Positions 6,211-57,804 of a stretch of DNA of 58,930 nucleotides are shown here, in pieces. Source of the DNA: an uncultured Reyranella sp. (GTDB lineage: Bacteria > Pseudomonadota > Alphaproteobacteria > Reyranellales > Reyranellaceae); the NCBI GenBank assembly GCA_937919085.1, contig CALFRN010000026.1, positions 1 to 58,930 on the forward strand. The letters are read 5' to 3'. Each line of letters starts with the position of its first letter. Position 1 is the first letter of the stretch. The notes beneath the pieces were generated by a model, which made no database searches, was not told the DNA's origin, and saw only the letters and a program-made list of their open reading frames with translations. The translations under genes and the position numbers were made by a program.

Positions 6211-9922
<3,712 letters not shown>

Positions 9923-9926
<4 letters not shown>

Positions 9927-11041
9927 ACCCGCATCGGCATGAGCACGTAGAGCGCGCTTTCGTCGGCACCGTCACGCACCAGTGTGGGCGAGCCGGCATC
10001 GGCCATCAGGAAGCGCGCCTCGGCGCCCACGATCTGTTCGGTGATGTCGAGCAGATAGCGCGAGTTGAAACCAATCTCCAGCGCCGCGGCCTTGTAGTCG
10101 ACCTCGATCTCTTCGGTCGCGCTGCCGGCGTCGGGGCTGGTGGCCGACAGCGTGACCACGCCGTTGGCGACCGCAACCTTGATGGCCCGCGATTTCTCGG
10201 TGGAGATGGTCGAGACGCGGTCGACGGCGTGCGCGAATTCCTTGCACGGTACGTTCAGGACCTTGTCGTTGCCGGTCGGGATGACGCGTTCATAGTCGGG
10301 GAACGTGCCGTCGATCAGCTTGGACACCAAAGTGACATTGCCGCTGGCGAAACGGATCCGGGTGTCGGAAAGCTCGATGTCGACCGAGCCATCGCTTTCG
10401 TCCAGCAGCTTTCGGACCTCGCCCACGGTCTTGCGCGGTACGATCACGCCGGGGATTTCGGCGGCGCCCTTGGGCAGGGGCACCTCCACCCGGGCGAGGC
10501 GGTGGCCGTCCGTGGCGACACCGCGCAGCACCGGGGTGGCCCCCGACGTCGCAGCATGGAAGTAGATGCCGTTCAGGTAGTAGCGCGTTTCTTCGTTCGA
10601 GATGGCAAATCGCGTGCGGTCGATGATGCCTTTGAGATCGGTGGCGGGGAGCTGGAAGCGGTGCGGCAGGTCGCCCTCGCTCATGGCAGGGAAATCGGCG
10701 GGTGGCAGGCACTGCAGCGTGAAGCGCGAGCGGCCAGCCCGGATCGTCAGGCTGCCGCCGTCCGATGCCGCTTCCAGTTCAACCTGTGCTCCGTCCGGCA
10801 GCTTGCGCACAATCTCGTACAGCGTATGGGCGGGAGCTGTCGTGGAACCGGTCTTGCTCGCGTTCGCATCCACCGATTCGGTGATGGCGAGGTCCATGTC
10901 GGTTGCCGCGAGGCTCAGCCGGCCCTTTTGCGCGGTGATCAGCACGTTGGACAGAATCGGGATCGTGTTCCGCCGTTCGACCACACTCTGCACATGGGCC
11001 AGCGCCTTGAGAAGGGCTGCCCGTTCGATCGTCAATTTCAT
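9923..11041 (-). CDS. dnaN: DNA polymerase III beta sliding clamp
   Basis: 372 residues forming three clamp domains. Recognisable stretches are MKLTIERAALLKALAHVQ at the start, VVERRNTIPILSNV, FPAMSE, VATDGHRLARVEV and the C-terminal LYVLMPMRV that lines the protein-binding pocket. It encircles DNA and tethers Pol III. ATG 11041 gives the family start; the codons upstream of it add only a short non-conserved leader. It lies between dnaA (211-nt gap with a hairpin) and recF (4-nt overlap). Confidence 0.97.
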
Positions 11042-41794: not shown

Positions 41795-41886
41795 CCCCGA
41801 GCGATTGAAGTTCGAGGCGCGTTGCGTCGGGGTGCTTGTGCGTCTGCCCGGGAACGCGCATCTAGGACATCAGGTTATGCGTGCCC

Positions 41887-43824
<1,938 letters not shown>

Positions 43825-43833
43825 GCAGATGGC

Positions 43834-44466
43834 ATGGAAGTTGCGCCCCACGGTTGCAATCTGATCCCGCTGGCCATTGTGACAAAGTCGCTGTCTGTAT
43901 TGCTGATCGACGACAATCCCGCCCGCGCCGACATCGTCGAGGCAGGCTTGCGGAATGCTGGTTACGTCCTGCTTGCACGGCTCGATGGGACGCATGACCT
44001 TCCCGCGCGGGTCGGCGCTCTGCAGCCGGACGTCATTGTCGTCAGCATCGACAGTCCCAGTCGCGATTCAATCGAAGACATGCGCCGCAGCACCGAGCAA
44101 CAACCGCGGCCGATTGCGCTGTTCGCCGATCGGTCGGACCCCGCAACGATTGCCGCGGCAATGGAAGCAGGCGTCTCGGCCTATGTCGTGAAGGGGTTGG
44201 CCGAAGACCGCGTTCGCTCGGTCGTCGACGTGGCCGTGGCCCATTTCAATCGCTACCACGCGATGCGTGAGGAACTCGATCGTGCCCGCCTGTCCTTGGT
44301 CGAGCGCAAGATGGTCGACCGAGCGAAGGGGCTGCTCATGGAGAAAAACGGGCTGGCCGAAGAAGCCGCCTACCGGCTGTTGCGCAAGCTCGCCATGGAT
44401 CAGAACAAGCGCATTGGTGAAGTTGCCCAGGACATCGTCACCTACATAAAGGTGCTCAAGAAATAG
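43834..44466 (+). CDS. nasT: NasT-type ANTAR-domain transcription antiterminator
   Basis: 210 residues. N-terminal receiver-like domain (SVLLIDDNPARADIVEAGL) and a C-terminal ANTAR RNA-binding domain (about 150-205: LSLVERKMVDRAKGLLMEK, AYRLLRKLAMDQNKRIGEVA). NasT binds paired hairpins in the leader of nitrate-assimilation mRNA and prevents termination, unless NasS holds it in the absence of nitrate. Here the receiver has Ser at the usual phospho-Asp place (PDVIVVSIDSP). The matching RNA target lies 224 nt downstream of its stop. ATG 43834 or GTG 43879 (MTKSLSVLLIDDN, more family-like) may be the start. Confidence 0.9.
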   Translation: MEVAPHGCNLIPLAIVTKSLSVLLIDDNPARADIVEAGLRNAGYVLLARLDGTHDLPARVGALQPDVIVVSIDSPSRDSIEDMRRSTEQQPRPIALFADRSDPATIAAAMEAGVSAYVVKGLAEDRVRSVVDVAVAHFNRYHAMREELDRARLSLVERKMVDRAKGLLMEKNGLAEEAAYRLLRKLAMDQNKRIGEVAQDIVTYIKVLKK

Positions 44467-44623
44467 GCGAGTGTCGATGCTTGCGAAACGATCATGCTGC
44501 GTATGCGAGCGTCATGCGGTCCGGGCGGGAATGCTCCGAGCCAGTGGGGAGTGATCCCACCATGGCGATTAAAATCATTATGGATCAATAGCCTAGACCG
44601 TTGGTCTTCGGACGGCATACCTC

Positions 44624-44639
44624 TGGCATGCTTCCTGCT
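44624..44639 (+). promoter_or_regulatory. Sigma-54-type promoter of the nitrate operon
   Basis: TGGCATGCTTCCTGCT matches the -24/-12 consensus TGGCACG-N4-TTGCW at 10 of 12 defined positions, and the invariant GG and GC are separated by exactly 10 nt. Transcription would start near 44650, 40 nt before the first ANTAR hairpin. Klebsiella nasF uses the same combination of NtrC/sigma-54 and ANTAR attenuation. I found no clear NtrC enhancer upstream. Confidence 0.7.
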
Positions 44640-44689
44640 GCACTTAACTGTAGATATCGCGATGCACCATTGAAGGTCATTCGCGAACT

Positions 44690-44741
44690 GGACCCAATGA
44701 AGGGTCCCTCCTCATTTGAATGGCAGGCCACTGATGGCCTG
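44690..44741 (+). ncRNA. ANTAR-target leader RNA: two tandem hairpins
   Basis: Hairpin 1: GGACCC (44690-44695), loop AATGAA, GGGTCC. Hairpin 2: CAGGCC (44724-44729), loop ACTGAT, GGCCTG (to 44741). Both have perfect 6-bp stems and hexaloops with A at position 1 and G at position 4, which defines the RNA recognised by ANTAR proteins. They sit between a sigma-54-type promoter and an intrinsic terminator, just ahead of nasS. NasT binding should favour this fold and prevent the terminator. The rest of the 44467-44828 gap holds no other open frame; two small dyads (AGACC-GTT-GGTCT at 44595-44607; GTGGG-N7-CCCAC near 44545) are unexplained. Confidence 0.9.
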
Positions 44742-44754
44742 TATGCGGACAACG

Positions 44755-44805
44755 GCGTCCTTCGCAGTCGGCTCAAGCCGGCTGTGCTGGGCGCTTTTTG
44801 TTTTT
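44755..44805 (+). terminator. Attenuator terminator ahead of nasS
   Basis: A long stem: GCGTCC (44755-44760) pairs with GGGCGC (44789-44794), and CGCAGTCGG (44763-44771) pairs with CCGGCTGTG (44778-44786) around loop CTCAAG, then TTTTTGTTTTT. It lies 14 nt after ANTAR hairpin 2 and 24 nt before the nasS ATG, the position expected of an antitermination-controlled attenuator. Confidence 0.85.
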
Positions 44806-44828
44806 CGTGACTTTGGAGACCTGCTGCG

Positions 44829-46106
44829 ATGGCCGACCTCGAACGATCGAAGGTAACTCTGGGGATCATCCCTCTCGTTGATTGCGCGCCGATCGTGCTG
44901 GCGGAGGAACTGGGTGCGTTCGAACGCCACGGGCTCGAGGTCGAGATCTGTCGTGAGGCGTCATGGGCCACGATCCGGGACAAGGTGGCTTTGGGATTGC
45001 TCGACGCCGCGCAGATGCTTGCCCCGATGCCGCTTGCATCCACGCTGGGTATCGACGGCATCAGCGTGCCGATGGTCGCGGCCATGACGCTCGATCTCAA
45101 CGGCAACGCCATTACGCTGTCGCAGTCCCTGTGGCGGGAAATCGAGGAGGCGGCTCCCGAGCTTACCGGCGAAAATCTGGCCATCGGCACGCCTCTGGAT
45201 GCGCGTGCGCTGGCCGCGGTAGTCCGGCGCCGCGCGGCCGCCGGCCGGCCGCCGCTGGCACTTGCCTCGGTCTTCCCCTTCTCCTCGCACAACTACCTGC
45301 TGCGTCTTTGGCTGGCGGCCGGCGGCATGGATCCCGACCGCGATGTGCGTCTTAGCGTCGTCCCGCCACCCCACACCGTCGCCCATCTATCGGGCGGAGT
45401 AATCGATGGCTATTGCGTCGGCGAGCCATGGAACCAGCAGGCTGTGTCGGTTGGCATCGGCCGAATTGCCGTCACGGGACATCAGATCTGGAAAGCGATG
45501 CCCGAGAAGGTCCTGGGGACGACCGAAAGCTGGGCACAGTGTCATCCCAAGACGCTGATCGCCCTGATCAAGGCACTGATCGAGGCTTGTGCATGGCTCG
45601 ACGAGCCCGCGAATCGGCGTGAGGCCGCGCGAGTCCTGGCGTCGCCGCGCTACGTCAATGCACCGGTCGAGGTGATCGAGCGATCGATGTCGGGGGGATA
45701 CCTGTTCGCGCAAGACGGTGTGCCTGTTGCATTGCCCGATTTTCATATTTTTCACCGCCAGGCCGCCAACTTTCCGTGGCGCAGCCACGCCGACTGGTTC
45801 CTCGAGCAGATGGTGCGCTGGGGGCAGGCCGATCCGGCGGTAAACCTGCGCGCCGTCGCAGATCGTGTCTTCCGCTGCGACATTTATCGCGCGGCGGCGA
45901 GTGAACTGGCACTTCCCTGTCCGACGAGCGACCGCAAGCCGGAGGGCGCTCATGCCCACCCATGGATCCTGCAAACCAATGGCCGCCCCATCGCGATGGC
46001 GCCTGATGATTTTCTCGACGGGTCGGTGTTCGACCCGTCCAGCTCGGCGGTCAAGCAAGACGCGCCAGCTCGCGACCCGATGCGCGATCACCCCGGCAAG
46101 TTCTGA
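44829..46106 (+). CDS. nasS: NasS-type cytosolic nitrate sensor (NrtA-like)
   Basis: 425 residues of the NrtA/CmpA binding-protein fold but with no signal peptide (starts [21 protein letters not shown]), the feature that separates cytosolic NasS from periplasmic NrtA. Ligand-pocket stretches shared with the adjacent NrtA include [28 protein letters not shown] and [13 protein letters not shown]. NasS binds NasT when nitrate is absent and lets go when nitrate is bound. GGAGA precedes the ATG. It is the first gene after the attenuator, so its own synthesis should depend on NasT. Confidence 0.85.
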
Positions 46107-46143
46107 ATACCGACTTTCACGATCCTCATACTGGAGACCAGTC

Positions 46144-47550
46144 ATGGCGAAGAAGACAAGACACATCGCGATCGGACGGCGGGCGATCCTGGCCGGTGCA
46201 GGCGCGCTGGCAGCGCAAGGCCTCTCGATATCGGCGTCGCGCGCGCAAACGCCGAAAGTCGAGAAGGACGAACTGAAATTCGGATTCATCAAGCTGACCG
46301 ACATGGTTCCGCTCGCGATCGCCAAGGAGAAGGGCTTCTTCGAGGAGGAGGGTCTGTTTGTGACCCTCGAGCCACAAGCAAACTGGAAGGTACTGCTCGA
46401 CCGCGTCATCACCGGCGAACTCGACGGCGCTCACATGCTGGCGGGTCAACCGATTGCCGCGACCATCGGCTTCGGCACCAAGGCGCACATTGTGACGCCA
46501 TTCTCGATGGATCTGAATGGAAACGGGACGACCGTGTCGAACGAAGTCTGGGCCGAGATGAAGAAGCACATTCCGGTCGGTGCCGACGGCAAGCCGGTCC
46601 ATCCGATCAAGGCCAGCGCACTGAAGCCGGTGATCGAAAAAATGAAAGGCGAAGGCAAGCCGTTCAAGATGGGCATGGTCTTTCCCGTCTCCACCCACAA
46701 CTACGAGCTTCGTTACTGGCTTGCGTCCGGCAACATTCATCCCGGCTTCTATTCCAAGACCGACGTTACCGGGCAGATCAAGGCAGAAGCCCTTCTATCG
46801 GTTACACCGCCGCCGCAGATGCCGTCGACGCTACAGGCCGGGACCATCCACGGATACTGTGTCGGTGAACCGTGGAACCAGCAGGCGGTGTTCAAGGGCA
46901 TCGGCGTTCCGGTGATCACCGACTACGAAATCTGGAAGAACAATCCGGAGAAGGTGTTCGGTGTCACCGCAGAGTTCGCCCAGAAGAACCCGGGCACGCT
47001 GATCGCGCTTACCAAGGCGCTGATCCGGGCGGGCATGTGGCTCGATGCCGAGAACAACGCCAACAGGATGGAGGCGGTCAAGATCATATCGAAGCCGGAG
47101 TATGTCGGCGCCGACGTCGAAGTCATCGCCAATTCGATGACCGGCACGTTCGAATACGAGAAGGGCGACAAGCGGGCGGTGCCCGATTTCAATGTCTTCT
47201 TCCGCTACTACGCTACCTATCCCTACTACTCGGACGCCGTCTGGTATCTGACGCAGATGCGTCGCTGGGGGCAGATCCCCGAATTCAAGCCGGACGCCTG
47301 GTACGAGGAAACCGCCAAGAAGGTCTATCTGCCGGAGATCTATCTCAAAGCAGCGAAGGCGCTGGTCGATGAAGGCAAGGCCAAGAAGGATGACTTTCCC
47401 TGGACGACCGACGGCTATCGCGCGCCGACCGCCGAAAACATCGACGCGATTCCCTACGACGGCCGCAAGCCCAATGCCTACATCGACAGCCTGTCGATCG
47501 GATTGAAGGGCAAGCAGACCGTCGAAGGCACCGACGTGGTTGGCGGCTAG
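46144..47550 (+). CDS. nrtA: Nitrate ABC transporter substrate-binding protein
   Basis: 468 residues. The N terminus has a twin-arginine-type export signal ([17 protein letters not shown], likely cleavage after SRAQ), followed by the NrtA fold: [27 protein letters not shown]-like start ([17 protein letters not shown]), [28 protein letters not shown] and [13 protein letters not shown]. It captures nitrate in the periplasm for NrtB. GGAGA lies 6 nt before ATG 46144; the nasS stop is 37 nt upstream. Confidence 0.92.
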
Positions 47551-47597: not shown

Positions 47598-48683
47598 ATG
47601 ACCACTGTCAGTGAAGACGCCGCAGAATTGCGGTTCCGCAGCGAAGCGCGTCGGGAACGGCTGTTCGCCCGCATCAACAAGGCATCGGGCTATCTCGATG
47701 TCTTCGGTTTGGGCTGGGTTGTGCCACTCCTTCGCATTGCCGCGGGCGACAGTCCGAGGCACCAGCTCGCCGAGCTGCGTCAGGTCCTGCTCGTGCCGCT
47801 GGCGGGCATCGCGGCTTTTCTGCTGCTGTGGGCGGCTCTCGCGCCTCAGGTGAAGACGTCGCTGGGGGTCGTGCCGGGGCCAGCACAAGTGTGGGAGCAG
47901 GCCGTCAATCTCTACGACGATCATACTGCCGAGCGGGTCAAGGAGGCGGCTTTCTACGCGCGGCAGAGGGACCGCAACCAGAAACTCGAGGCGGCGGGCA
48001 AGGGTGATCAGGTCAAATCGCGCAGCTATACCGGCAAGCCGACCTATCTCGACCAGATCGCGACCAGTCTGAAGACCGTGGCAATCGGCTTCCTGGTCGC
48101 GACGCTGATCGCGGTGCCGGTCGGAATCATGTGTGGCCTGTCGCGGACCGTCGAAGGCGGGCTCAATCCGCTGATCCAGATCTTCAAGCCGGTGTCGCCG
48201 CTGGCATGGCTGCCGATCGTCACCATCGTCGTTTCGGCGCTCTATCTCGATCCGCTCGATTGGCTGCCGAAGTCCCTGGTGATTTCGGCCATCACCGTGA
48301 CGCTTTGCTCGCTGTGGCCGACGCTGATCAACACTTCGCTCGGCGTCGCCTCGATCGACAAGGATCTCGTGAACGTCGGCAAGGTACTCCAGCTCTCGAC
48401 CACCACGACGGTCCGCAAGGTGGTCCTGCCGTCGGCGCTGCCGTTGATCTTCACTGGCCTGCGGCTTTCGCTGGGCGTGGGCTGGATGGTCCTGATTGCG
48501 GCTGAAATGCTGGCGCAGAATCCCGGCCTCGGAAAATTCGTATGGGACGAGTTCCAGAACGGGTCGTCGTCCTCCTTGGCCAAGATCATGGTCGCGGTGC
48601 TGACCATCGGGATCATCGGGTTCGTGCTCGATCGTCTGATGTTCGCCCTGCAGGCGGCCTTCACCTACGGCATGAATCGCTAG
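47598..48683 (+). CDS. nrtB: Nitrate ABC transporter permease
   Basis: 361 residues. An N-terminal helix (about 57-76, LLVPLAGIAAFLLLWAALAP) is followed by a charged loop and a BPD-type permease core (about 150-355) with KTVAIGFLVATLIAVPVG and the ATPase-coupling EAA-type segment around DKDLVNVGKVLQLSTTTTVRKVVLPSALP (key part: VRKVVLPSALPLIFTGLRLS). It is the inner-membrane channel of the NrtABCD importer. It lies 47 nt after nrtA and 18 nt before the ATPase gene. Confidence 0.92.
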   Translation: MTTVSEDAAELRFRSEARRERLFARINKASGYLDVFGLGWVVPLLRIAAGDSPRHQLAELRQVLLVPLAGIAAFLLLWAALAPQVKTSLGVVPGPAQVWEQAVNLYDDHTAERVKEAAFYARQRDRNQKLEAAGKGDQVKSRSYTGKPTYLDQIATSLKTVAIGFLVATLIAVPVGIMCGLSRTVEGGLNPLIQIFKPVSPLAWLPIVTIVVSALYLDPLDWLPKSLVISAITVTLCSLWPTLINTSLGVASIDKDLVNVGKVLQLSTTTTVRKVVLPSALPLIFTGLRLSLGVGWMVLIAAEMLAQNPGLGKFVWDEFQNGSSSSLAKIMVAVLTIGIIGFVLDRLMFALQAAFTYGMNR

Positions 48684-48701: not shown

Positions 48702-50405
48702 ATGGCTCTCCTCGAACTGAAGAACGTGCGGAAGGGTTACGGCGATATCGGCCGGCGCACGGAGGTTCTGGATGGAATCGACCTCGCCGTCGAGGAGGGA
48801 GAGTTCGTCGCAATCGTCGGCTTCTCCGGCTCGGGCAAGACGACATTGATCTCCCTGATGGCCGGGCTGCTGATGCCCGACGCCGGCGAAGTGACCGTCA
48901 GAGGCGTTCCGGTCACCGGCGCGGGCCCCGACCGCGGCCTCGTGTTCCAGTCCTACTCGTTAATGCCCTGGCTCACGGTCACGGCCAACGTGGCGCTGGC
49001 CGTCGATGCGGTCTTCAAGACCAATACCCGGGCCGAACGCGCAGCCCGTGTGCGGCGCTACATCGACATGGTGGGTCTCAGTCACGCCGCCGACCGCCGA
49101 CCGTCCGAACTCTCGGGCGGCATGCGCCAGCGCGTCGCCGTTGCACGTGCGCTGGCCACCGGCCCCGAAATCCTTCTGCTCGACGAGCCATTGTCGGCGC
49201 TCGATGCCCTGACCCGCGCCAAGCTGCAGGACGAATTCGACGAGATCCGGGCACGGGAAGGCAAGACGATCGTGCTGATCACCAACGACGTCGACGAGGC
49301 CATCCTGCTGGCGGACCGGATCATACCGTTGAAGCCCGGTCCCAGGGCGACCCTCGGCCCGTCGTTCAAGGTGACGATTCCGCGTCCGCGCAACCGTATG
49401 GCGCTGAACGCCGATCCCGCTTTCAAGCGGCTGAGGGCCGAGATTACGAAGTACCTGATGGATCTCGGTATCGAGCGCGGCTTGGAAGGTGAGGAGCGGC
49501 ATCTGCCTGACATCCAGCCCGTGACCCAGCTCGAGTCGCCGCCCGATCTGGTGCGCAAGGCCGGGCGCTCGCCCATCCTTGACCGTTATGTCGAGTTCTT
49601 CGACGTCAAGAAGGTCTACCCGACTCCGAAGGGTCCGCTGACCGTCGTCGAGAAGTTCCAGCTTCTCATGAAGAAGGGCGAGTTCGTATCGCTGATCGGT
49701 CACTCCGGATGTGGCAAGTCGACGGTGTTGTCGATGGTTGCGGGCCTCACCGAGATTTCGGCCGGGGGCATCGTGCTCAACGGCCGCGAGATCGACTCCG
49801 CCGGCCCTGACCGCGCCGTCGTGTTTCAGGCCCCATCGTTGATGCCGTGGCTGACGGCACGCGAGAACGTCGCCCTGGGCGTCGACAAGGTCTATCCTCA
49901 TGCCTCGCCGGCGGAACGACGCGAGATTGTCGAATACTACCTGGCCCGCGTGGGCTTGGCGGATTCCATGCACCGCAAGGCCAGCGAGCTGTCGAACGGC
50001 ATGAAGCAGCGTGTCGGCATTGCGCGCGCCTTCGCCCTGTCACCTCGCCTGCTGTTGCTGGATGAGCCGTTCGGCATGCTCGACAGCCTGACCCGCTGGG
50101 AGTTGCAGGAAGTTCTAATGGACGTGTGGAAGCGTACGCAGGTTACGGCGATCTGCGTCACCCATGACGTCGACGAAGCCATCCTGCTGGCCGACCGCGT
50201 CGTGATGATGACCAACGGGCCCAATGCCACCATCGGCAAAGTGCTCGACGTGCCGCTCCCGCGACCCCGCACTCGAAAGTCCCTGATCGAGCATCCCGAT
50301 TACTATCGGTATCGCGGAGAAGTGCTAACCTTTCTTGAGGAATACGAGCACGGCGCCAAACCCAAACTGCCGGCGGCGGCTGAGGTCGCGAAGGCGGCGG
50401 CATGA
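48702..50405 (+). CDS. nrtCD: Fused double ATPase of the nitrate ABC transporter
   Basis: 567 residues with two complete ABC ATPases. NBD1 (about 3-225): Walker A GFSGSGKT (40-47), LSGGM (137-141), LLLDEP, but Asn195 replaces the switch His (LITNDVDEA). NBD2 (about 297-525): GHSGCGKS (333-340), LSNGM (430-434), LLLDEP and intact switch His488 (VTHDVDEA). It energises NrtB. Both deviations fall in the same predicted composite ATP site, which may therefore be weak. It overlaps nirA by 4 nt (ATGA). Usually these are two genes (nrtC, nrtD). Confidence 0.9.
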
Positions 50406-52183
50406 CCGAATTCGACGACCGGCAGAAGCAATGGCTGCAGGGCTTCGTCAGCGGCATCGAGGCGCGCAAGGCCGCTGACCGATTGTCAGGCCACGCGTCG
50501 GGTACGTCGGCGGCCCAGCAGGTCGGGCCCGATGCCCTGCAACACGCCGCGCAGGACCGCACGACGGCGGCGGGCGGCAAGCTGGTCGCCGAGGAAACCG
50601 CCAAGCGTGCACGTCATCCGCTGGACCGTTGGGACGAAGTCGTGGGGCGCGCCGAGGCCGGGCAGTTTCCCAAGGGCATCGACGTCTTTCTCACCAAGTA
50701 TCAGGGCTTGTTCTATGTAGCGCCTGCGCAGAACTCCTTCATGTGCCGGCTGCGGATTCCCAACGGAATCCTGACCGCCTGGCAGATGCGTGGTCTGGCC
50801 GATGCGGCCGAGTCCTTCGGCGGCGGCTACGCCGACGTGACAACCCGCGCCAACCTGCAGATCCGTGAAATTCCGGCACGCGCCGCCGTCGATCTGCTGC
50901 TGGCTGTCCAGGAACTGGGCCTCACCTCGCGCGGCTCGGGCGCCGACAATATTCGAAACATTACCGGCAGTCCGACCGCGGGAGTCGATCCGCAGGAACT
51001 CATCGACACGAGGCCACTTTGCCGCGCGATGCATCATTACATCCTCAATCACCGTGAGATGTACGGATTGCCGCGGAAATTCAACATTGCCTTTGATGGT
51101 GGCGGACGCGTGCCGGTGCTGGAAGACACAAACGATATCGGCTTCGTGGCGGTCGACGTGACCGGCGGGTCCGGTTTCGATCCTGGCATCTACTTCCGCC
51201 TGCAGCTCGGCGGCATCACGGGCCATCTCGATTTCGCCTTTGACTCTGGCGTGCTTGTGAAGCCCGCGGAATGCGTGACGGTGGCGGGTGCTGTCGTCCG
51301 GGCCTTCGCTGCACACGGTGACCGCACCGACCGCCTGAAAGCGCGCCTGAAATATGTGCTCGACCGGATCGGCCGAGAAGCGTTCCTCGCCGAGGTCGAG
51401 AAGGAATATGGCGCCAAGTTGCGGCGCGCGGCGGGTGCCGAGATGGTGCCGCGGACATTCGCCGACAAGCATGGGCACATCGGCGTGCACCGGCAGCGGC
51501 AAGCCGGGCTCAATTATCTCGGATTGGTGCTGCCGGTAGGCCGCCTGACGGTCGACCAGATGCGCGGCATCGCCGAGATCGCCCAGCGTTTCGGGAGCGG
51601 CACGATCCGCCTGACCGTGTGGCAGAATCTGTTGATCTCGGATGTCGCCGACCGTGATGTCGGCATCTGCATCGCCGCCATCAATTCGCTGGGCCTCGGT
51701 ATCGAAGCGAGCGCCATCCGACGTGGGCTCGTGGCCTGCACCGGCAATGCCGGCTGCAAGTTTGCCGCCTCCAACACCAAGGGTCATGCGTTGAAGCTCG
51801 CCGACCATCTTGAGGCGCGCGTGGCCATCGATACGCCGGTGAACATCCATCTGACCGGCTGCCACCATTCCTGCGCCCAGCACTATGTCGGCGATATCGG
51901 GCTGCTGGCCGCCAAGATCGATCGTGGTGAGGAAAGCGTTGAGGGCTATCACGTCTACATCGGCGGCGGTGCGGCCTCGACCAAGGAGCAGGCGATGGCC
52001 CGCGACTACGCGCAGTCTGTTGCCTTCGACGATCTGCCACCCCTGCTGGAGCGCCTGCTCGCGGCCTATCTCGCCCATCGGCAGGCACCCAGCGAGTCGT
52101 TCTTCGAATTCTGCCGCCGGCACGAGATTGACCAGTTACGCAAGCTCGCCGATGCAGCGCCTGTACGGGCCCTGGCGGGATGA
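50402..52183 (+). CDS. nirA: NirA-type siroheme nitrite reductase
   Basis: 593 residues. Two ferredoxin-like half domains and the siroheme/[4Fe-4S] site, whose Cys pairs lie in [11 protein letters not shown] and [17 protein letters not shown]. Substrate Arg/Lys-rich parts ([29 protein letters not shown]) are present. It reduces nitrite to ammonium with six electrons. The long N-terminal lead (about 1-90) is unlike sulfite reductase beta. Starts and ends in 4-nt overlaps with nrtCD and the flavoprotein gene, so translation is coupled. Confidence 0.92.
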
Positions 52184-53748
52184 ACGCGATCGCGCGCCTG
52201 CCGTCGCTGATTCCCGAGAATGCGCCGTTCTCGAGCGAGCAGCGCGCCTGGCTGAATGGCTTCTTCTCAGCCTATCTCGGTGTTACCGGCGAGACCGTGG
52301 ACGGAGCGAGCGACGAACCCTCCGAGCCCGAGGATTTCCCCTGGCATGACGCATCGCTTGCCATGCCGGAGCGCATGGAGCTTGCCAAGGAGGCGAAGCC
52401 CGAGCGCAAGCTGATGGCGGCGATGGCGCAGCTCGATTGCGGCCAGTGCGGCTATCTCTGCCAGACCTATGCCGAGGCGGTGTGGTCGGGCACCGAGGCC
52501 GACATGGGCCGCTGCGTGCCGGGCGGAAAGGAAACCCAGCGCAAGCTGAAGGAGCTGATTGCGGCCCTCGAGACGGAACGCAGCACGCCGGCCGTTGCCG
52601 CGGTCGCCAAGACGGCCGGCATCCATGGCTTCTCACGGGACCGGCCGGCGCTCGCCACGCTGGTTGATGCTCATCCCCTCAATCGTCCCGGCTCGGAGAA
52701 GGACGTGCGCCACGTCGTGCTCGATCTTTCGACCACCGACGTTACATATGACGCTGGCGACAGCCTGGGGGTGTTCGCGCGCAAGAACCCGCGGCTCGTC
52801 CAGGCCGTTCTCGACCGCGTCGGTGCCACCGGCGAGGAGATCGTGGCCTACGACGGCGAGGCACTGCCGCTGCGCCAGGTCCTGCTGAGCAAGGTCGACA
52901 TCGCTCGCCCAAGCGACGAGTGCATGCTGTTTCTCGCGACCCGCGCCTTCAACGGCGAGGAGGCGCTGAAGCTGCAGGCAATGGCCGAGGGCAAGGGCCT
53001 GCCGGAACTGGCCGATGCCGACCTGCTCGATCTCCTGCATGCCTTTCCCTCGGTGATGCCGTCGCTGCCGGGCCTGCTGAAGTCGCTCGACCGCCTGCAG
53101 CCCCGGCTCTACTCGATCGCCTCCTCGTCCAAGGCCCATCCGCGCGAGGTCCATCTCACGGTTTCGGCGGTGCGCTGGGACAGCAACGACCGCACACGCA
53201 CCGGCATCGGCTCGTGCTATCTCGCCGACTTCGCCAAGCCGGGAGACGTTATCCCGGTGTTCGTCCAGAAGAGTCATGGCTTCGGTCCGCCGGCGGACGA
53301 CAATGCGCCGGCGATCATGATCGGGCCCGGCACCGGCATCGCGCCGTTCCGCGCCTTCCTCGAGGAGCGCGACGCACGCGGCGCCAAGGGCAGGAACTGG
53401 CTGTTCTTCGGCGAGCAGAAGCGCGTCACCGATTTCCTCTACGAGGACCAGATCGTGGACTGGCAGCGCCGCGGCCTGCTGAGCCGCCTCGACCTCGCCT
53501 TCTCGCGCGACCAGGCCGAGAAGATCTACGTCCAGACCCGCATGCGCGAGAATGCCGCCGAACTGTGGACGTGGCTGGAGGAGGGCGCCCACTTCTATGT
53601 CTGCGGCGACGCCAAGCGCATGGCCAAGGACGTCGAGGACGAGTTGCTCCGGATCGCGGTCGAGCGCGGAGGCAAGAGCATGGAACAGGCGAAGGCCTGG
53701 CTCGGCGACCTCGTCAAGGCCGGCCGCTACCAGCGCGACGTCTACTGA
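52180..53748 (+). CDS. Fe-S/FAD/NAD(P) reductase, CysJ-like without the FMN domain
   Basis: 522 residues. It has the CysJ/cytochrome P450 reductase-type FAD domain (RLYSIASS, TGIGSCYLAD) and NAD(P) domain (IGPGTGIAPFRAF, FFGEQKRVTDFLYEDQI, VCGDAKRMAKDVEDEL). There is no flavodoxin/FMN domain. In its place, residues 87-116 hold a CGQCGYLC ... RCVPGG cluster (Cys87, 90, 94, 112) like the PF04060 Fe-S domain. It probably carries electrons from NADPH to NirA and/or NasA. Coupled by ATGA to nirA, 7 nt before nasA. Confidence 0.85.
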   Translation: MNAIARLPSLIPENAPFSSEQRAWLNGFFSAYLGVTGETVDGASDEPSEPEDFPWHDASLAMPERMELAKEAKPERKLMAAMAQLDCGQCGYLCQTYAEAVWSGTEADMGRCVPGGKETQRKLKELIAALETERSTPAVAAVAKTAGIHGFSRDRPALATLVDAHPLNRPGSEKDVRHVVLDLSTTDVTYDAGDSLGVFARKNPRLVQAVLDRVGATGEEIVAYDGEALPLRQVLLSKVDIARPSDECMLFLATRAFNGEEALKLQAMAEGKGLPELADADLLDLLHAFPSVMPSLPGLLKSLDRLQPRLYSIASSSKAHPREVHLTVSAVRWDSNDRTRTGIGSCYLADFAKPGDVIPVFVQKSHGFGPPADDNAPAIMIGPGTGIAPFRAFLEERDARGAKGRNWLFFGEQKRVTDFLYEDQIVDWQRRGLLSRLDLAFSRDQAEKIYVQTRMRENAAELWTWLEEGAHFYVCGDAKRMAKDVEDELLRIAVERGGKSMEQAKAWLGDLVKAGRYQRDVY

Positions 53749-53755
53749 GCGAGCC

Positions 53756-56368
53756 ATGGTCCGTACCACGTGCCCCTATTGCGGTGTCGGTTGCGGGATC
53801 GTGGCGACTCCCGACGGCCGTGGCGGTGCGACGATCGCCGGCGACACCGATCATCCAGCCAACCGTGGCCGGCTCTGCTCCAAGGGTGCCGCGCTGGGCG
53901 AAACGCTGTCGCTCGAGGATCGGTTGCTCCACCCCGAGGTCGACGGGCGGCGCGTTTCCTGGGAGACGGCGCTCGACACGGTGGCCAACGGCTTTCGCGA
54001 AGTCATCGCCCGGCACGGGCCGGACGCCGTTGCGTTCTATGTCTCGGGCCAGCTCCTTACCGAGGACTATTACGCCGCCAACAAGCTGATGAAAGGCTTC
54101 CTTGGCACAGCCAACATCGACACCAATTCACGTCTGTGCATGGCCTCGTCGGTGGCGGGCCACAAGCGCGCCTTCGGCAGCGACACCGTGCCGGGTCTTT
54201 ACGAAGATTTCGAACTGGCCGACCTCGTCGTGCTGGTCGGCAGTAATCTGGCCTGGTGCCACCCTGTCCTGTTCCAGCGTCTCGAGGCGGCCAAGCGCGC
54301 ACGGCCCGGGATGAAGATTGTCGTGGTCGATCCGCGTCGCACCGACACCTGCGACATTGCCGATCTCCACCTGGCAATTCGGCCCGGCAGTGACGTGGCT
54401 CTATTCAATGGACTTCTGGTGGAACTGCATCGCCGCGGCGTTGCGGCAACGTGCTTCGTCGACCGCCATACCGCGGGTATCGAGGAGGCGTTGACTGCGG
54501 CTCGCGCCGGCGATCCGGCACTATGCGGGCTGACAGCAGCCGACATCGCGAGTTTCTTCGACTGGTTCGCCCGGAGCGAGAAGTCCGTCACGCTCTATTC
54601 CCAGGGCGTGAACCAGTCGAGTGCCGGCGCAGACAAGGTGAATGCCATAATCAACTGTCACCTGCTGACGGGACGCATCGGCCGGCCGGGCATGGGGCCA
54701 TTTTCGATCACCGGCCAACCCAACGCCATGGGCGGCAGAGAGGTAGGCGCGCTCAGCAATACGTTGGCCGCCCACATGGATTTCGCTCCCGAGGACGTGG
54801 CCCGCGTCGGGCGCTTTTGGAACAGCTCCCGGGTGGCACGGCGACCGGGCTTAAAGGCAGTCGAGCTGTTTGAGGCGGTGAAGTCCGGCCGGATCAAGGC
54901 GGTTTGGATCATGGCGACCAACCCGGTGGCCAGCCTGCCGGATGCCGCGGCCGTGCGAGCGGCGTTGCAGGGCTGCGAGCTCTCGATCGTTTCCGAGGCG
55001 GTGCGCGCCAGCGATACGGTCGATGCCTGTCGCATCCGCCTGCCGGCACTGGCGTGGGCCGAGAAGAACGGCACTGTCACCAACTCTGAACGCTGTATCT
55101 CCCGCCAGAGGTCGTTCCTTTTGCCACCAGGCGAAGCAAGGCAGGATTGGTGGATCGTGGCCGAAGTCGCGCGCCGCCTGGGTTTCGGGCAGGCTTTTGA
55201 CTGGACAAGTGCCGCCGATATTTTCCGCGAGCATGCCGCCCTCTCCGCCTTTGAGAATGGCGGAACGCGTGATTTCGACATCGGTGCCCACGCCAATCTG
55301 GATGATCGCAGCTATGAGTCGCTGGAGCCCTTCGCATGGCCGGCCCCCGCGGACAGAAGGTGGGTCGGCGCGCGCTTCTTCTCCGATGGCAGCTTTTTTC
55401 ATTCCGATGGTCGGGCACGATTCGTTGCTACGGTACCGCGGGGCCCGGTTCACGCCCCGAGCGCCGCGCGGCCGCTGCGCCTCAACACCGGACGAGTCCG
55501 CGACCAATGGCACACCATGACGCGGACGGGGAAATCCGCTCGGCTCGCCGGCCATCGGCCCGAACCCACGATCGACCTGCATCCTGCCGATGCGGCCGTC
55601 CGAAGGCTTGTGGAAGGCGACATCGCCGAGGTGGAGAGCGACTGGGGACGGGCCGTACTGAAGGTGCATGTGTCGGACGCCGTGCGGGTGGGCGAGGTGT
55701 TTGCCCCCATGCACTGGACGGCGCAGGTCTCACGGGCCGGTGCAATCAACGCCGCCGTCAATCCGGCGGTCGATCCAATCTCCGGTCAGCCTGAGCTTAA
55801 GCACACGCCGGTCGAAATTCGCCGTCGAGATATGCATTGGCATGGCACGATTCTCGCTCGTAGGCCGGTAATGCTACCTGAAGTAACCTATTGGGCACAC
55901 GTGAGAGGCGCTGGCTTTCATGCCTATCTGCTGGCGGGCGAGCAGCCGTTCGCACTTGCACAGCAGGCACTGGCGGCGGCCGTGCGCTCAACCAACCCCG
56001 GACCATGGCTGGGCGACGCGTCCGGCATTGGTGCGGTGATCAGTGATGGCCGACTCGAGGCCGTCTTGGCGGTCGGCGAGATGCGCGACGACTCTGCGCG
56101 TGAGCGACTGGCCCCATTTATGGCAATGGACCGGCTGGGCCTCGAAGAGCGCAACGTACTGTTGAACGGTGGCAGCGCGGTCGATCGCGGCGGCGATATC
56201 TGTGCCTGCTTCGGGGTGTCGTGTGGATCGGTAACGGCGGCAATCGCCGATGGCGCGGTCACGCTCGATTCGATCGGTGTCGCCACTCGTGCGGGTACGA
56301 ACTGTGGGTCTTGCCGTCCTGAACTCCGGGCGATCCTGCGCGCTGCGCGGATCATGAAGGCTGCATGA
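53756..56368 (+). CDS. nasA: Assimilatory nitrate reductase catalytic subunit
   Basis: 870 residues. N-terminal [4Fe-4S] ligands Cys6, 9, 13 and 41 (CPYCGVGCG ... LCSKG), then the molybdopterin domains with the Mo-ligand Cys in NSRLCMASSV and GPFSITGQPNAMGGREVG. The molybdopterin-dinucleotide-binding C-terminal part starts LNTGRVRDQWHTMTRTGK. The extreme C terminus is a BFD-type [2Fe-2S] domain (CACFGVSCGS ... NCGSCRPEL). It reduces nitrate to nitrite in the cytosol. It shares ATGA with cysG. Confidence 0.94.
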   Translation: MVRTTCPYCGVGCGIVATPDGRGGATIAGDTDHPANRGRLCSKGAALGETLSLEDRLLHPEVDGRRVSWETALDTVANGFREVIARHGPDAVAFYVSGQLLTEDYYAANKLMKGFLGTANIDTNSRLCMASSVAGHKRAFGSDTVPGLYEDFELADLVVLVGSNLAWCHPVLFQRLEAAKRARPGMKIVVVDPRRTDTCDIADLHLAIRPGSDVALFNGLLVELHRRGVAATCFVDRHTAGIEEALTAARAGDPALCGLTAADIASFFDWFARSEKSVTLYSQGVNQSSAGADKVNAIINCHLLTGRIGRPGMGPFSITGQPNAMGGREVGALSNTLAAHMDFAPEDVARVGRFWNSSRVARRPGLKAVELFEAVKSGRIKAVWIMATNPVASLPDAAAVRAALQGCELSIVSEAVRASDTVDACRIRLPALAWAEKNGTVTNSERCISRQRSFLLPPGEARQDWWIVAEVARRLGFGQAFDWTSAADIFREHAALSAFENGGTRDFDIGAHANLDDRSYESLEPFAWPAPADRRWVGARFFSDGSFFHSDGRARFVATVPRGPVHAPSAARPLRLNTGRVRDQWHTMTRTGKSARLAGHRPEPTIDLHPADAAVRRLVEGDIAEVESDWGRAVLKVHVSDAVRVGEVFAPMHWTAQVSRAGAINAAVNPAVDPISGQPELKHTPVEIRRRDMHWHGTILARRPVMLPEVTYWAHVRGAGFHAYLLAGEQPFALAQQALAAAVRSTNPGPWLGDASGIGAVISDGRLEAVLAVGEMRDDSARERLAPFMAMDRLGLEERNVLLNGGSAVDRGGDICACFGVSCGSVTAAIADGAVTLDSIGVATRAGTNCGSCRPELRAILRAARIMKAA

Positions 56369-57804
56369 TGCGAACCTTCCCGCTTTTCATGTCGTTGCAG
56401 GAGCGGCGGGTACTGGTCGTCGGGGGCACCGAGGCCGCAGCGCGCAAGGTCGAGCTGCTGTTGTCCGCCGGTGCCCTTATAACGCTGATCGCCGACACGG
56501 TCGTGGGCGAGATCGCCCAGCTTATCGACGAAGGCCGTATCTCCTGGTCGGGGCGGGCTTTCGACGACGAGGATCTGGTGGGCGCGTCACTGGTCATCGT
56601 CGCCAGCGACGACGAGACTCTGCAGGCGCGCGCGTCGCAAGCGGCGCAACGACGCTGTGTTCCGGTGAACGTCGTCGATCGACCCAACCTCTCGAGTTTC
56701 ATCATGCCGGCGATCGTCGATCGTGCGCCGATCACCATCGCCATCTCGACCGGCGGCGCCGCACCGGCGCTGGCGCGGCGGCTGCGGGCGGAGATCGAGC
56801 GGTCCCTGCCGGCAGCGATCGGCCGGCTCGCGCGCTTTGCCGAAGTCTTCCGCAAGCAGGTGCGCCGTACGCTCAACCAGCCACGCACCCGTCGCCGTTT
56901 CTGGGATCGCGTGTTCGAAGGCCGCATCGGCGAACTGGCGCTGGCCGGTGACGAAATTGGTGCACGACGCGAACTGATTCGGCTGCTCGATAGCACGCGG
57001 CATGAGGCCGACCAGGCTGTCGGCCCCGCGCGGGGCATGGTGCATCTTGTTGGTGCCGGCCCTGGCGATCCCGATTTGCTGACGTTGAAAGCCCATCGCC
57101 TGCTGCAGCGTGCCGATACGGTGGTTTACGATCGCCTGGTCTCGGCTGAGGTGCTTGCCATGGCGCGACGCGACGCCGAGCGGATCTACGTGGGCAAACG
57201 TCGGGCGCTTCACTGTGTTCCCCAGGTGGAGATCAACGATCGTCTGGTGGCGTTGGCCTGTGCCGGCAAGAGTGTTGTGCGGTTGAAGGGCGGCGATCCG
57301 TTTATCTTTGGCCGTGGTGGCGAGGAAATCGAAGCCCTGACCCGGGCAGGCGTGGCCGTCGAAGTCGTACCCGGCGTGACTGCTGCCCTGGGCTGCGCGG
57401 CCAGTGCGGGAATCCCGCTTACACATCGCGATCATGCGCAAGCCTGCGTCTTCGTGACGGGCCACCTCAAGGATGGGAGCATCGATCTCGACTGGCAAAT
57501 GCTGGCGCGGACGCGCCAGACTGTCGTCATCTATATGGGCGCCGGGACCCTGCCGGTAATCGCCAGTCGGTTGGTCCAGCATGGACTACCAGCGGCAACG
57601 CCGGTGGCCCTGATCGAAAATGGTACGACCGACCGTGAGCGGCGCGTCGTTGGCACGCTCGCGACCATCGAACGACGGGCAATGCACGCGCGACTGACGG
57701 GGCCGACTTTGTGTCTGGTGGGGGAAGTGGTCGGCCTGGCCGCGGCTCAATCCGCAGAGGCCAAGTCCGGGGAATTTCACTTTGAGTCGCAAGTCGGTCT
57801 CTGA
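56365..57804 (+). CDS. cysG: Siroheme synthase (trifunctional CysG)
   Basis: 479 residues. The N-terminal part (about 1-200) is the NAD-dependent precorrin-2 dehydrogenase/ferrochelatase (VLVVGGTEAAARKVELLL, ISTGGAAPALARRLR). The C-terminal part (about 215-465) is uroporphyrinogen III methyltransferase (VHLVGAGPGDPDLLTLKA, VVRLKGGDPFIFGRGGEE, VVPGVTAALGCAASAGIPL, shown in pieces). It makes the siroheme that NirA needs, which explains its place at the end of this operon. It overlaps nasA by 4 nt. Confidence 0.95.
   Translation: MMRTFPLFMSLQERRVLVVGGTEAAARKVELLLSAGALITLIADTVVGEIAQLIDEGRISWSGRAFDDEDLVGASLVIVASDDETLQARASQAAQRRCVPVNVVDRPNLSSFIMPAIVDRAPITIAISTGGAAPALARRLRAEIERSLPAAIGRLARFAEVFRKQVRRTLNQPRTRRRFWDRVFEGRIGELALAGDEIGARRELIRLLDSTRHEADQAVGPARGMVHLVGAGPGDPDLLTLKAHRLLQRADTVVYDRLVSAEVLAMARRDAERIYVGKRRALHCVPQVEINDRLVALACAGKSVVRLKGGDPFIFGRGGEEIEALTRAGVAVEVVPGVTAALGCAASAGIPLTHRDHAQACVFVTGHLKDGSIDLDWQMLARTRQTVVIYMGAGTLPVIASRLVQHGLPAATPVALIENGTTDRERRVVGTLATIERRAMHARLTGPTLCLVGEVVGLAAAQSAEAKSGEFHFESQVGL

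Follow-up and report, generated by a model that had tools for sequence, protein, structure and literature searches.

The window, a 58,930-base stretch of the genome of an uncultured Reyranella sp., carries the gene of the ANTAR-domain protein NasT, the gene of the nitrate sensor NasS, and a set of nitrate-assimilation genes, which raises the question of how the short region between nasT and nasS could control the genes behind it. A preliminary description, made from the sequence alone, had proposed that two ANTAR-target hairpins followed by an intrinsic terminator form the RNA side of a NasT antitermination switch, the whole input and output set of which lies in the window. We report here that the leader RNA of this soil bacterium probably allows NasT, freed on nitrate sensing, to carry transcription on into the nitrate-use genes. 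Mechanisms of this kind are known; what is distinct at this locus is the presence of three hexaloops, the position of nasS behind the switch, and a sigma-54-like start near the first hairpin. Absent from the preliminary description were the third hairpin, the sigma-54-like promoter and what follows from the position of nasS behind the switch of its own regulator.

Organization of the nasT–nasS locus

The region between nasT and nasS contains, in this order, an NtrC-like palindrome, a sigma-54-like element, the hairpins P1, P2 and P3, and an intrinsic terminator (Table 1). P1, P2 and the terminator with its T-rich end were found where they had first been placed. The start of nasT may be later than called, as relatives often align only from residue 13–16. 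The product of nasT is the single match to the ANTAR family in the whole genome (E ≤ 0.001). The nearest solved relative of NasT is EutV (6wsh/6ww6), and a serine of NasT aligns to the conserved aspartate of EutV, a replacement that would suit control by a partner protein rather than by phosphorylation. NasS, the ATG of which is separated from the U-run by 23 nt, has no evident signal peptide and is cytoplasmic as judged from its N-terminus only. The locus belongs to the NasS–NasT systems, as it encodes a receiver-like ANTAR protein and an NrtA-like NasS adjoining nitrate-assimilation genes, including nasA, a nitrate reductase with a BFD domain, and cysG, a siroheme synthase. The gene content fits the claim that the window holds the whole input and output set, with one ANTAR protein, one motif site at E ≤ 1, and the transporter, reductases and siroheme synthase downstream.

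Table 1 Features of the nasT–nasS locus, in window coordinates
Feature	Position	Strand	Description
nasT	43834–44466	+	Receiver-like domain and C-terminal ANTAR domain; 210 aa as called; Pfam ANTAR 3.3e-19, Response_reg 4.2e-09
NtrC-like palindrome	44495–44511	+	17 bp, TGC-N11-GC(A/G); about 30 nt past the nasT stop
Sigma-54 -24/-12-like element	44624–44639	+	TGGCATGCTTCCTGCT; predicted RNA start about 44650
P1	44690–44707	+	GGACCC.AATGAA.GGGTCC; loop AAUGAA, A1, G4
P2	44723–44742	+	CAGGCC.ACTGAT.GGCCTG at 44724–44741, plus G.U pair 44723/44742; loop ACUGAU, A1, G4
P3	44747–44760	+	GGAC.AACGGC.GTCC (GUCC in RNA); 4-bp stem; A1/G4 loop; likely antiterminator
Intrinsic terminator	44754–44805	+	Stem 44754–44795; T5-G-T5 TTTTTGTTTTT at 44795–44805
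nasS	44829–46106	+	NrtA-like nitrate sensor; first gene past the terminator; Pfam NMT1_2 2.6e-86
nrtA	46123–47550	+	Nitrate-binding protein; Tat-like signal; NMT1_2 7.4e-94; start approximate
nrtB permease	47598–48683	+	ntrB TIGR01183 1.3e-47 (162 bits, under the cut-off of 209)
nrtC/D double-ATPase	48702–50405	+	ntrCD TIGR01184 6.6e-181
nirA nitrite reductase, CysJ-like flavoprotein, nasA, cysG	50402–57804	+	Genes in the order given; NF007126 2.3e-271, NF004859 7.3e-195, molybdopterin and BFD domains, NF007922 8e-182

The gene at 41881–43824, which ends 9 nt before nasT, encodes a Ser/Thr protein kinase that has MORN repeats at its C-terminus. The kinase adjoins nasT in the loci of the genus that reach that far. 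However, 14 genus members have no nasT match (E ≤ 1e-20), and 12 of them still contain a match to the C-terminal part of the kinase (E ≤ 1e-40); the two with neither match, G031 and G032, are genomes 74% and 60% complete. The kinase was set aside as a component of the switch, since its C-terminal part occurs without nasT and the link is perhaps only positional.

Three hexaloop hairpins in the leader

The leader contains three tandem hexaloop hairpins with A at loop position 1 and G at loop position 4 (A1/G4), the form of ANTAR targets. The two hairpins known from the preliminary description, P1 and P2, indeed carry A1/G4 hexaloops on 6-bp stems, and the terminator hairpin folds as had been described: the predicted folding of the leader (44660–44812) has a z of -5.25, and none of 200 dinucleotide shuffles was as stable. 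In the minimum free energy (MFE) fold, the loop of P2 is 4 nt long, because an A–U pair can form within ACUGAU. A search for arrays of A..G.. hexaloop hairpins with stems of at least 4 bp and gaps of at most 20 nt showed that the three-hairpin array is unique across both strands of the window, in which two-hairpin arrays occur in two other places. Among 10,000 dinucleotide shuffles of the region 44467–44828, none contained three hexaloop hairpins, and six contained two. A possible fourth A1/G4 hairpin, P0 (44661–44681, GAUG-C-ACC.AUUGAA.GGU-CAUU), is located in the longer 5' part of the window's leader. No counterpart of P0 was seen by eye in the longer leaders L037 and L031, and it was treated as chance.

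Conservation and covariation in the genus

The comparison set comprised 46 distinct leaders of the genus (that of the window and those of 45 loci), with identical leaders counted once. It left out L003/L058 (operon deleted), L005 and L018 (fetched stretch without nasS), L050, L051 and L057 (no nasS hit), the leaders of sister genera (L052–L056), and more distant loci. The closest loci in named genomes are those of Reyranella, or Reyranella-like loci under other titles. The MAG records L062, L079, L092 and L103 are titled Rhizobium, Devosia or Asaia and carry Reyranella-like kinase–nasT/nasT–nasS loci; to judge from these loci, the titles look wrong. In the closest relative found, L058 (92% NasT identity), the first approximately 48 codons of nasS are fused by a deletion to an apparent nasA (9627–10600); the leader is gone and nasT is retained.

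The preliminary description had expected stems and A and G loop positions to be conserved in relatives, and they are conserved across the genus leaders. All three hexaloop hairpins are present in 42 of the 46. A1 and G4 are invariant in the loops of P1 and P3 (42/42 leaders); in the loop of P2, G4 is kept in 42/42 and A1 in 41/42, the single exception being an A-to-G change at position 1 in L019, so that P2 has A1/G4 in 45 of all 46 leaders. The leaders of four species (L007, L010, L014, L016) are without a counterpart of P1, and their predicted start lies about 5 nt before P2. Because these species keep P2 and P3, P1 is apparently dispensable in evolution, and P2 and P3 are the retained elements.

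Double-sided changes were found at four of the six pairs of P1 and at four of the eight tested pairs of P2, in which 97.3% of cells are paired. The stem of P3 is identical in all 46 leaders, and therefore covariation cannot test P3. Compared with shuffles, which ignore relatedness among the leaders, the structure of P1, P2 and P3 (alignment A1, 46 rows including the four without P1) has 94.9% rather than 86.5% of cells paired and 69 rather than 23.9 double-change cells, and neither figure was matched in any of 500 shuffles. The pairs with a double-sided change number eight compared with 5.5 in the same shuffles, 12 of 500 of which did as well. When the partner was slid by 1–3 columns, the pairing of P1–P3 fell to 35.9–59.6%. 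The terminator stem is 86.7% paired compared with 82.6% in shuffles and contains 51 double-change cells compared with 17.3 (0/500 shuffles on both), and its count of double-change pairs was reached by 58 of 500 shuffles, again with relatedness ignored. Of the ten pairs of the upper terminator stem, one is unpaired in 30 relatives and another in 36, and in three leaders the lower stem is not formed as drawn.

P3 and the terminator exclude each other in predicted folds

According to the published ANTAR model, the second hairpin must overlap the terminator (PMC3369931). Neither P1 nor P2 overlaps the terminator of the window, whereas P3 both overlaps and excludes it. The 3' arm of P3, GTCC (44757–44760), doubles as the terminator base, where it pairs with the terminator 3' arm, and the outermost predicted terminator pairs draw on the U-run. 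P3 and the terminator are exclusive in 46 of 46 predicted folds, with at least four of the eight P3 stem bases pairing into the terminator. The MFE of the region 44743–44806 is -34.9 kcal/mol, and -22.5 kcal/mol when P3 is enforced, a cost of 12.4 kcal/mol; the enforced P3 removes the lower stem of the terminator next to the U-run. In the folding of successively longer prefixes, P3 persists up to 44790 and the terminator appears at 44795, so that a bound protein would have a short time to decide the outcome.

The gap between P2 and P3 in the window is 4 nt with the extended P2, or 5 nt when counted from the 6-bp P2. Over the 46 leaders, its mode is 4 nt (28/46), and it is shorter than 5 nt in 34 and 5–10 nt in 12 (range 2–10), the gap of 10 being that of L044, whose P2 carries a mismatch. 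The gap between P1 and P2 is 11–19 nt over the leaders and 15–16 nt in the window. In eut leaders, a hairpin spacing of 5–12 nt was reported to be critical, with 3 and 14 nt failing (PMC3369931), and the addition of 20 nt was reported to abolish antitermination in vitro (PMC8934654). The P2–P3 gap is at or just below the eut range and the P1–P2 gap is mostly above it, and these limits are those of EutV, not of NasT.

P2 and P3 are the likely operative pair, with P3 as the antiterminator; we favour them over P1 and P2 because neither of the latter overlaps the terminator. The preliminary description had taken P1 and P2 for a classical dual-hexaloop antiterminator, which would make P3 merely a part of the terminator stem. 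This agrees with the longer, covarying stems of P1 and P2, compared with the 4-bp invariant stem of P3, and with the fact that the P2–P3 gap, too, is in its mode outside the 5–12 nt of eut. We nevertheless consider it unlikely, given the overlap required by the published model, a P1–P2 spacing in the window that exceeds the 14 nt that failed in eut (PMC3369931), the four species that dispense with P1 and keep P2 and P3, and the preservation of A1 and G4 in the P3 loop in 42/42 leaders. The reading of the leader as an ANTAR target of NasT finds good support in the covariance model and co-occurrence with nasT described below, the compensatory changes and the loop conservation, but the pair P1–P2 is unlikely to be its antiterminator.

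A run of at least four T follows the stem in 44 of the 46 leaders. The other two, L010 and L014, which both lack P1, have just TTT after the terminator stem, and their terminators look weak. In the sister genera (L052–L056), the last 160 nt before nasS contain two A1/G4 hexaloops, no run of four T, and a ribosome site close by, and the output there may be at the level of translation or a stop of another kind. It is conceivable that the Reyranella leader, too, acts mainly on the translation of nasS, by exposing the ribosome site, rather than on termination. ANTAR control at the level of translation has been stated (PMC8164766), and both the sister genera and the TTT leaders L010 and L014 would agree with it. 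However, the T-runs behind the hairpins in 44/46 genus leaders and the exclusion of the terminator stem by P3 in every predicted fold point to termination, and we regard control of translation as highly unlikely.

Putative promoter elements upstream of the hairpins

The sigma-54-like element (GG-N10-GC with TGGCAY and TGC) was found as a consensus match, TGGCAYN6TGC, in 45 of the 46 leaders, and the remaining leader reads N there. The predicted start lies at most 12 nt before P1 in 37 of the 41 leaders in which both could be placed and about 40 nt before it in the window. All these distances are uncertain by 1 nt or more, since the predicted +1 was placed one base earlier than is usual. The pattern TGC-N11-GC(A/G) of the NtrC-like palindrome is matched in 40 of the 46 leaders, but it is loose, and some of the matches are within the leader itself. 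The exact form TGCTGCAYATGCGAGCA occurs in 17/46 leaders, with the window not among them. These matches suggest that NtrC may control the leader, which would agree with the NtrC site reported for nasT in Paracoccus denitrificans (PMC5424462). A scan of 44400–44900 for sigma-70 promoters found none.

Co-occurrence of the motif with nasT

No Rfam family matched above its gathering threshold across the whole window; the best local match (E 0.17) was to an unrelated family. Three weak local matches, leuA-Halobacteria and mir-BART10 on the terminator hairpin and one on the other strand, were all below threshold and were rejected. We built a covariance model, R1, from 42 leaders and from P1–P3 only, and ran it on 75 genomes of the family with strict filters, which lose some weak matches. 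A match to nasT (E ≤ 1e-20) is present in 56 of the 75 genomes, and in 52 of these R1 identified a single strong site. The matches comprise 47 of the 51 nasT-bearing genus members (E ≤ 8.2e-7), 41 of which supplied training rows and six of which were out of sample (G010, G016, G017, G023, G024, G035), and all five nasT-bearing genomes of sister genera (E 2.7e-5 to 3.1e-4). In contrast, the 19 nasT-less genomes contained no R1 hit, the best E being 0.0151. One of the four genomes missed, G060, has a large deletion that fuses nasS to nasA and has removed the leader; in the other three (G063, G014, G027), the nasT match is partial and nasS was not found in the fetched stretch. The window's own genome contains one R1 hit (E 3.3e-14) and, under the strict filters, no second target at E ≤ 1. 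The covariance match anticipated for an ANTAR target was thus obtained with the purpose-built model and not with an Rfam family. Weak second matches (E 0.004–0.005) at G068:C17:6863-6927 and G065:C19:7198-7273 may represent additional NasT targets in larger genomes.

The co-occurrence bears on another interpretation, in which the terminator serves chiefly to end the kinase–nasT transcript, the nitrate operon is transcribed from another promoter, and the hairpins are incidental. Such a role would be compatible with the end of nasT approximately 330 nt upstream and with the terminator being the sole one found by scan in 44400–44900, and it would end readthrough from upstream for free. It leaves unexplained the sigma-54-like element that precedes the first hairpin in 45/46 leaders, the conservation of A1 and G4 across three hairpins, the lack of a strong motif match in nasT-less genomes, and the distance of just 23 nt from the U-run to nasS. 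We attach very little probability to it.

Comparison with known systems

In Paracoccus, the NasS–NasT complex was reported to dissociate on nitrate and NasT to bind the nasA leader, and a mutant in the HI hairpin lost growth on nitrate (PMC3795266, PMC5424462). The locus of the window resembles that of P. denitrificans in its nitrate-responsive NasS, ANTAR protein NasT, hairpin leader before structural genes, and NtrC input. However, the Paracoccus leader is preceded by the cotranscribed nasT and nasS and followed by nasA, whereas here the leader splits nasT from nasS, which places the sensor gene within the controlled operon. Two hairpins, HI and HII, are named in the Paracoccus leader (PMC3795266, PMC5424462), compared with three hexaloops here. 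The Klebsiella nasF leader controlled by NasR also serves nitrate assimilation and has A1/G4 loops, the last hexaloop overlapping the terminator, but it combines a one-component NasR with two hexaloops instead of NasS–NasT with three (PMC3369936). The locus L109 of Enterobacter pulveris, which served as a check on the assumption that it is a nasR locus, contains a hexaloop pair with a 9-nt gap and a T-run. The eutP leader of Enterococcus faecalis, the target of EutV, is similar in that its second hairpin is inside the terminator and a recruitment hairpin is followed by an antitermination hairpin, and it differs in having two hexaloops with a longer gap (PMC3369931, PMC8934654). EutV is phosphorylated on a receiver with a conserved Asp, which in the NasT studied here is replaced by Ser. 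The AmiC–AmiR system and amiE leader of Pseudomonas aeruginosa are alike in that a sensor of the ligand-binding-protein type holds the ANTAR protein. In both systems the sensor gene lies inside the controlled operon; AmiR, too, is encoded inside the amiE operon, whereas NasT is encoded outside the operon here.

The arrangement of the genes was compared in an even sample of 386 genomes of Alphaproteobacteria, 66 of which contain a NasT-like match at E ≤ 1e-15. From 55 genomes, 57 loci were fetched; not included were the genome of the window, two members of the genus compared above, the eight genomes whose matches were weakest and, in G399, a second, weak match. In the following counts, signals were identified with a simple pattern and the starts of genes were placed approximately. 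The first NasS/NrtA-like gene begins less than 200 nt after nasT in 41 of the 57 loci, as in Paracoccus; one of these (L138) has a two-hexaloop cluster in a 191-nt gap. Five loci (L111, L112, L116, L163, L165) contain a gap with a hexaloop array and then a signal-less NasS, the first NasS/NrtA-like gene has a Tat-like signal in nine, and no such gene was found in two. In three of these nine, L117, L119 and L126, nasT is followed by a signal-bearing NrtA-like gene, nrtB, and then a NasS-like gene before nrtC, which likely places the sensor in the middle of the transporter genes. The order nasT–leader–nasS with three or more hexaloops is also present in two further loci, L106 (Azospirillum) and L107. 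The two variations, a sensor behind the switch and three hexaloops, are thus both found outside Reyranella too, but they are a minority in the sample. No description of three hexaloops, of the order nasT–leader–nasS or of a sigma-54-like start near the first hairpin was found among the matches listed in a mostly open-access literature.

Proposed mechanism of the switch

The best explanation of the region, and in our judgement a highly likely one, is that it encodes the leader RNA of a nitrate-assimilation operon under the control of NasT, with P2 and P3 as the operative hairpins and feedback arising from the position of nasS behind the switch. It is based on the sequences and their conservation, covariation in P1 and P2, exclusion in folding, gene order and co-occurrence; we infer the binding of NasT, the response to nitrate, the use of sigma-54 and NtrC, and the feedback. 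RNA polymerase with sigma-54 would start near 44650, probably with NtrC under nitrogen shortage. When no free NasT is available, P3 would yield to the terminator once the 3' arm of the latter emerges, and transcription would stop before nasS. Nitrate or nitrite would load NasS, and NasT would be released. By analogy with NasS–NasT of Paracoccus, the freed NasT would bind the A1/G4 hexaloops and hold P3, so that the terminator loses its lower stem and transcription reads through into nasS-nrtABC-nirA-cysJ-nasA-cysG. P1 would serve as an extra, dispensable landing site. A model of recruitment followed by antitermination (PMC8934654) would fit this arrangement, with P1 and P2 recruiting and P3 antiterminating. 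Since the switch separates the two genes, with nasT upstream and nasS downstream, NasS would be made only via readthrough, plus leak, and free NasT would raise the level of its own inhibitor, forming a negative feedback loop.

We tentatively consider a further possibility, which we think more doubtful than probable, that the three hexaloops act as a titration switch. P1 and P2 would preload NasT before P3 is made, resulting in a steeper readthrough, and NasS, having its gene solely downstream of the switch, would set the ratio of NasT to NasS near one. NasT might load onto P1–P3 as three dimers or as an oligomer of about six subunits, as reported in Paracoccus. If this is the case, the ratio near one would make the switch measure nitrate rather than protein level, and the species without P1 would have natural forms of it with two hairpins and a less steep response.

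In the wiring of NasS–NasT proposed here, the inhibitor is apparently produced only through the switch that it inhibits. With one ANTAR protein and one RNA target found in the genome, the locus offers a self-contained system, present across the genus, in which to test ANTAR antitermination. The natural variants with two and three hexaloops make the use of successive hexaloops by a dimer, for recruitment or for antitermination, directly testable.
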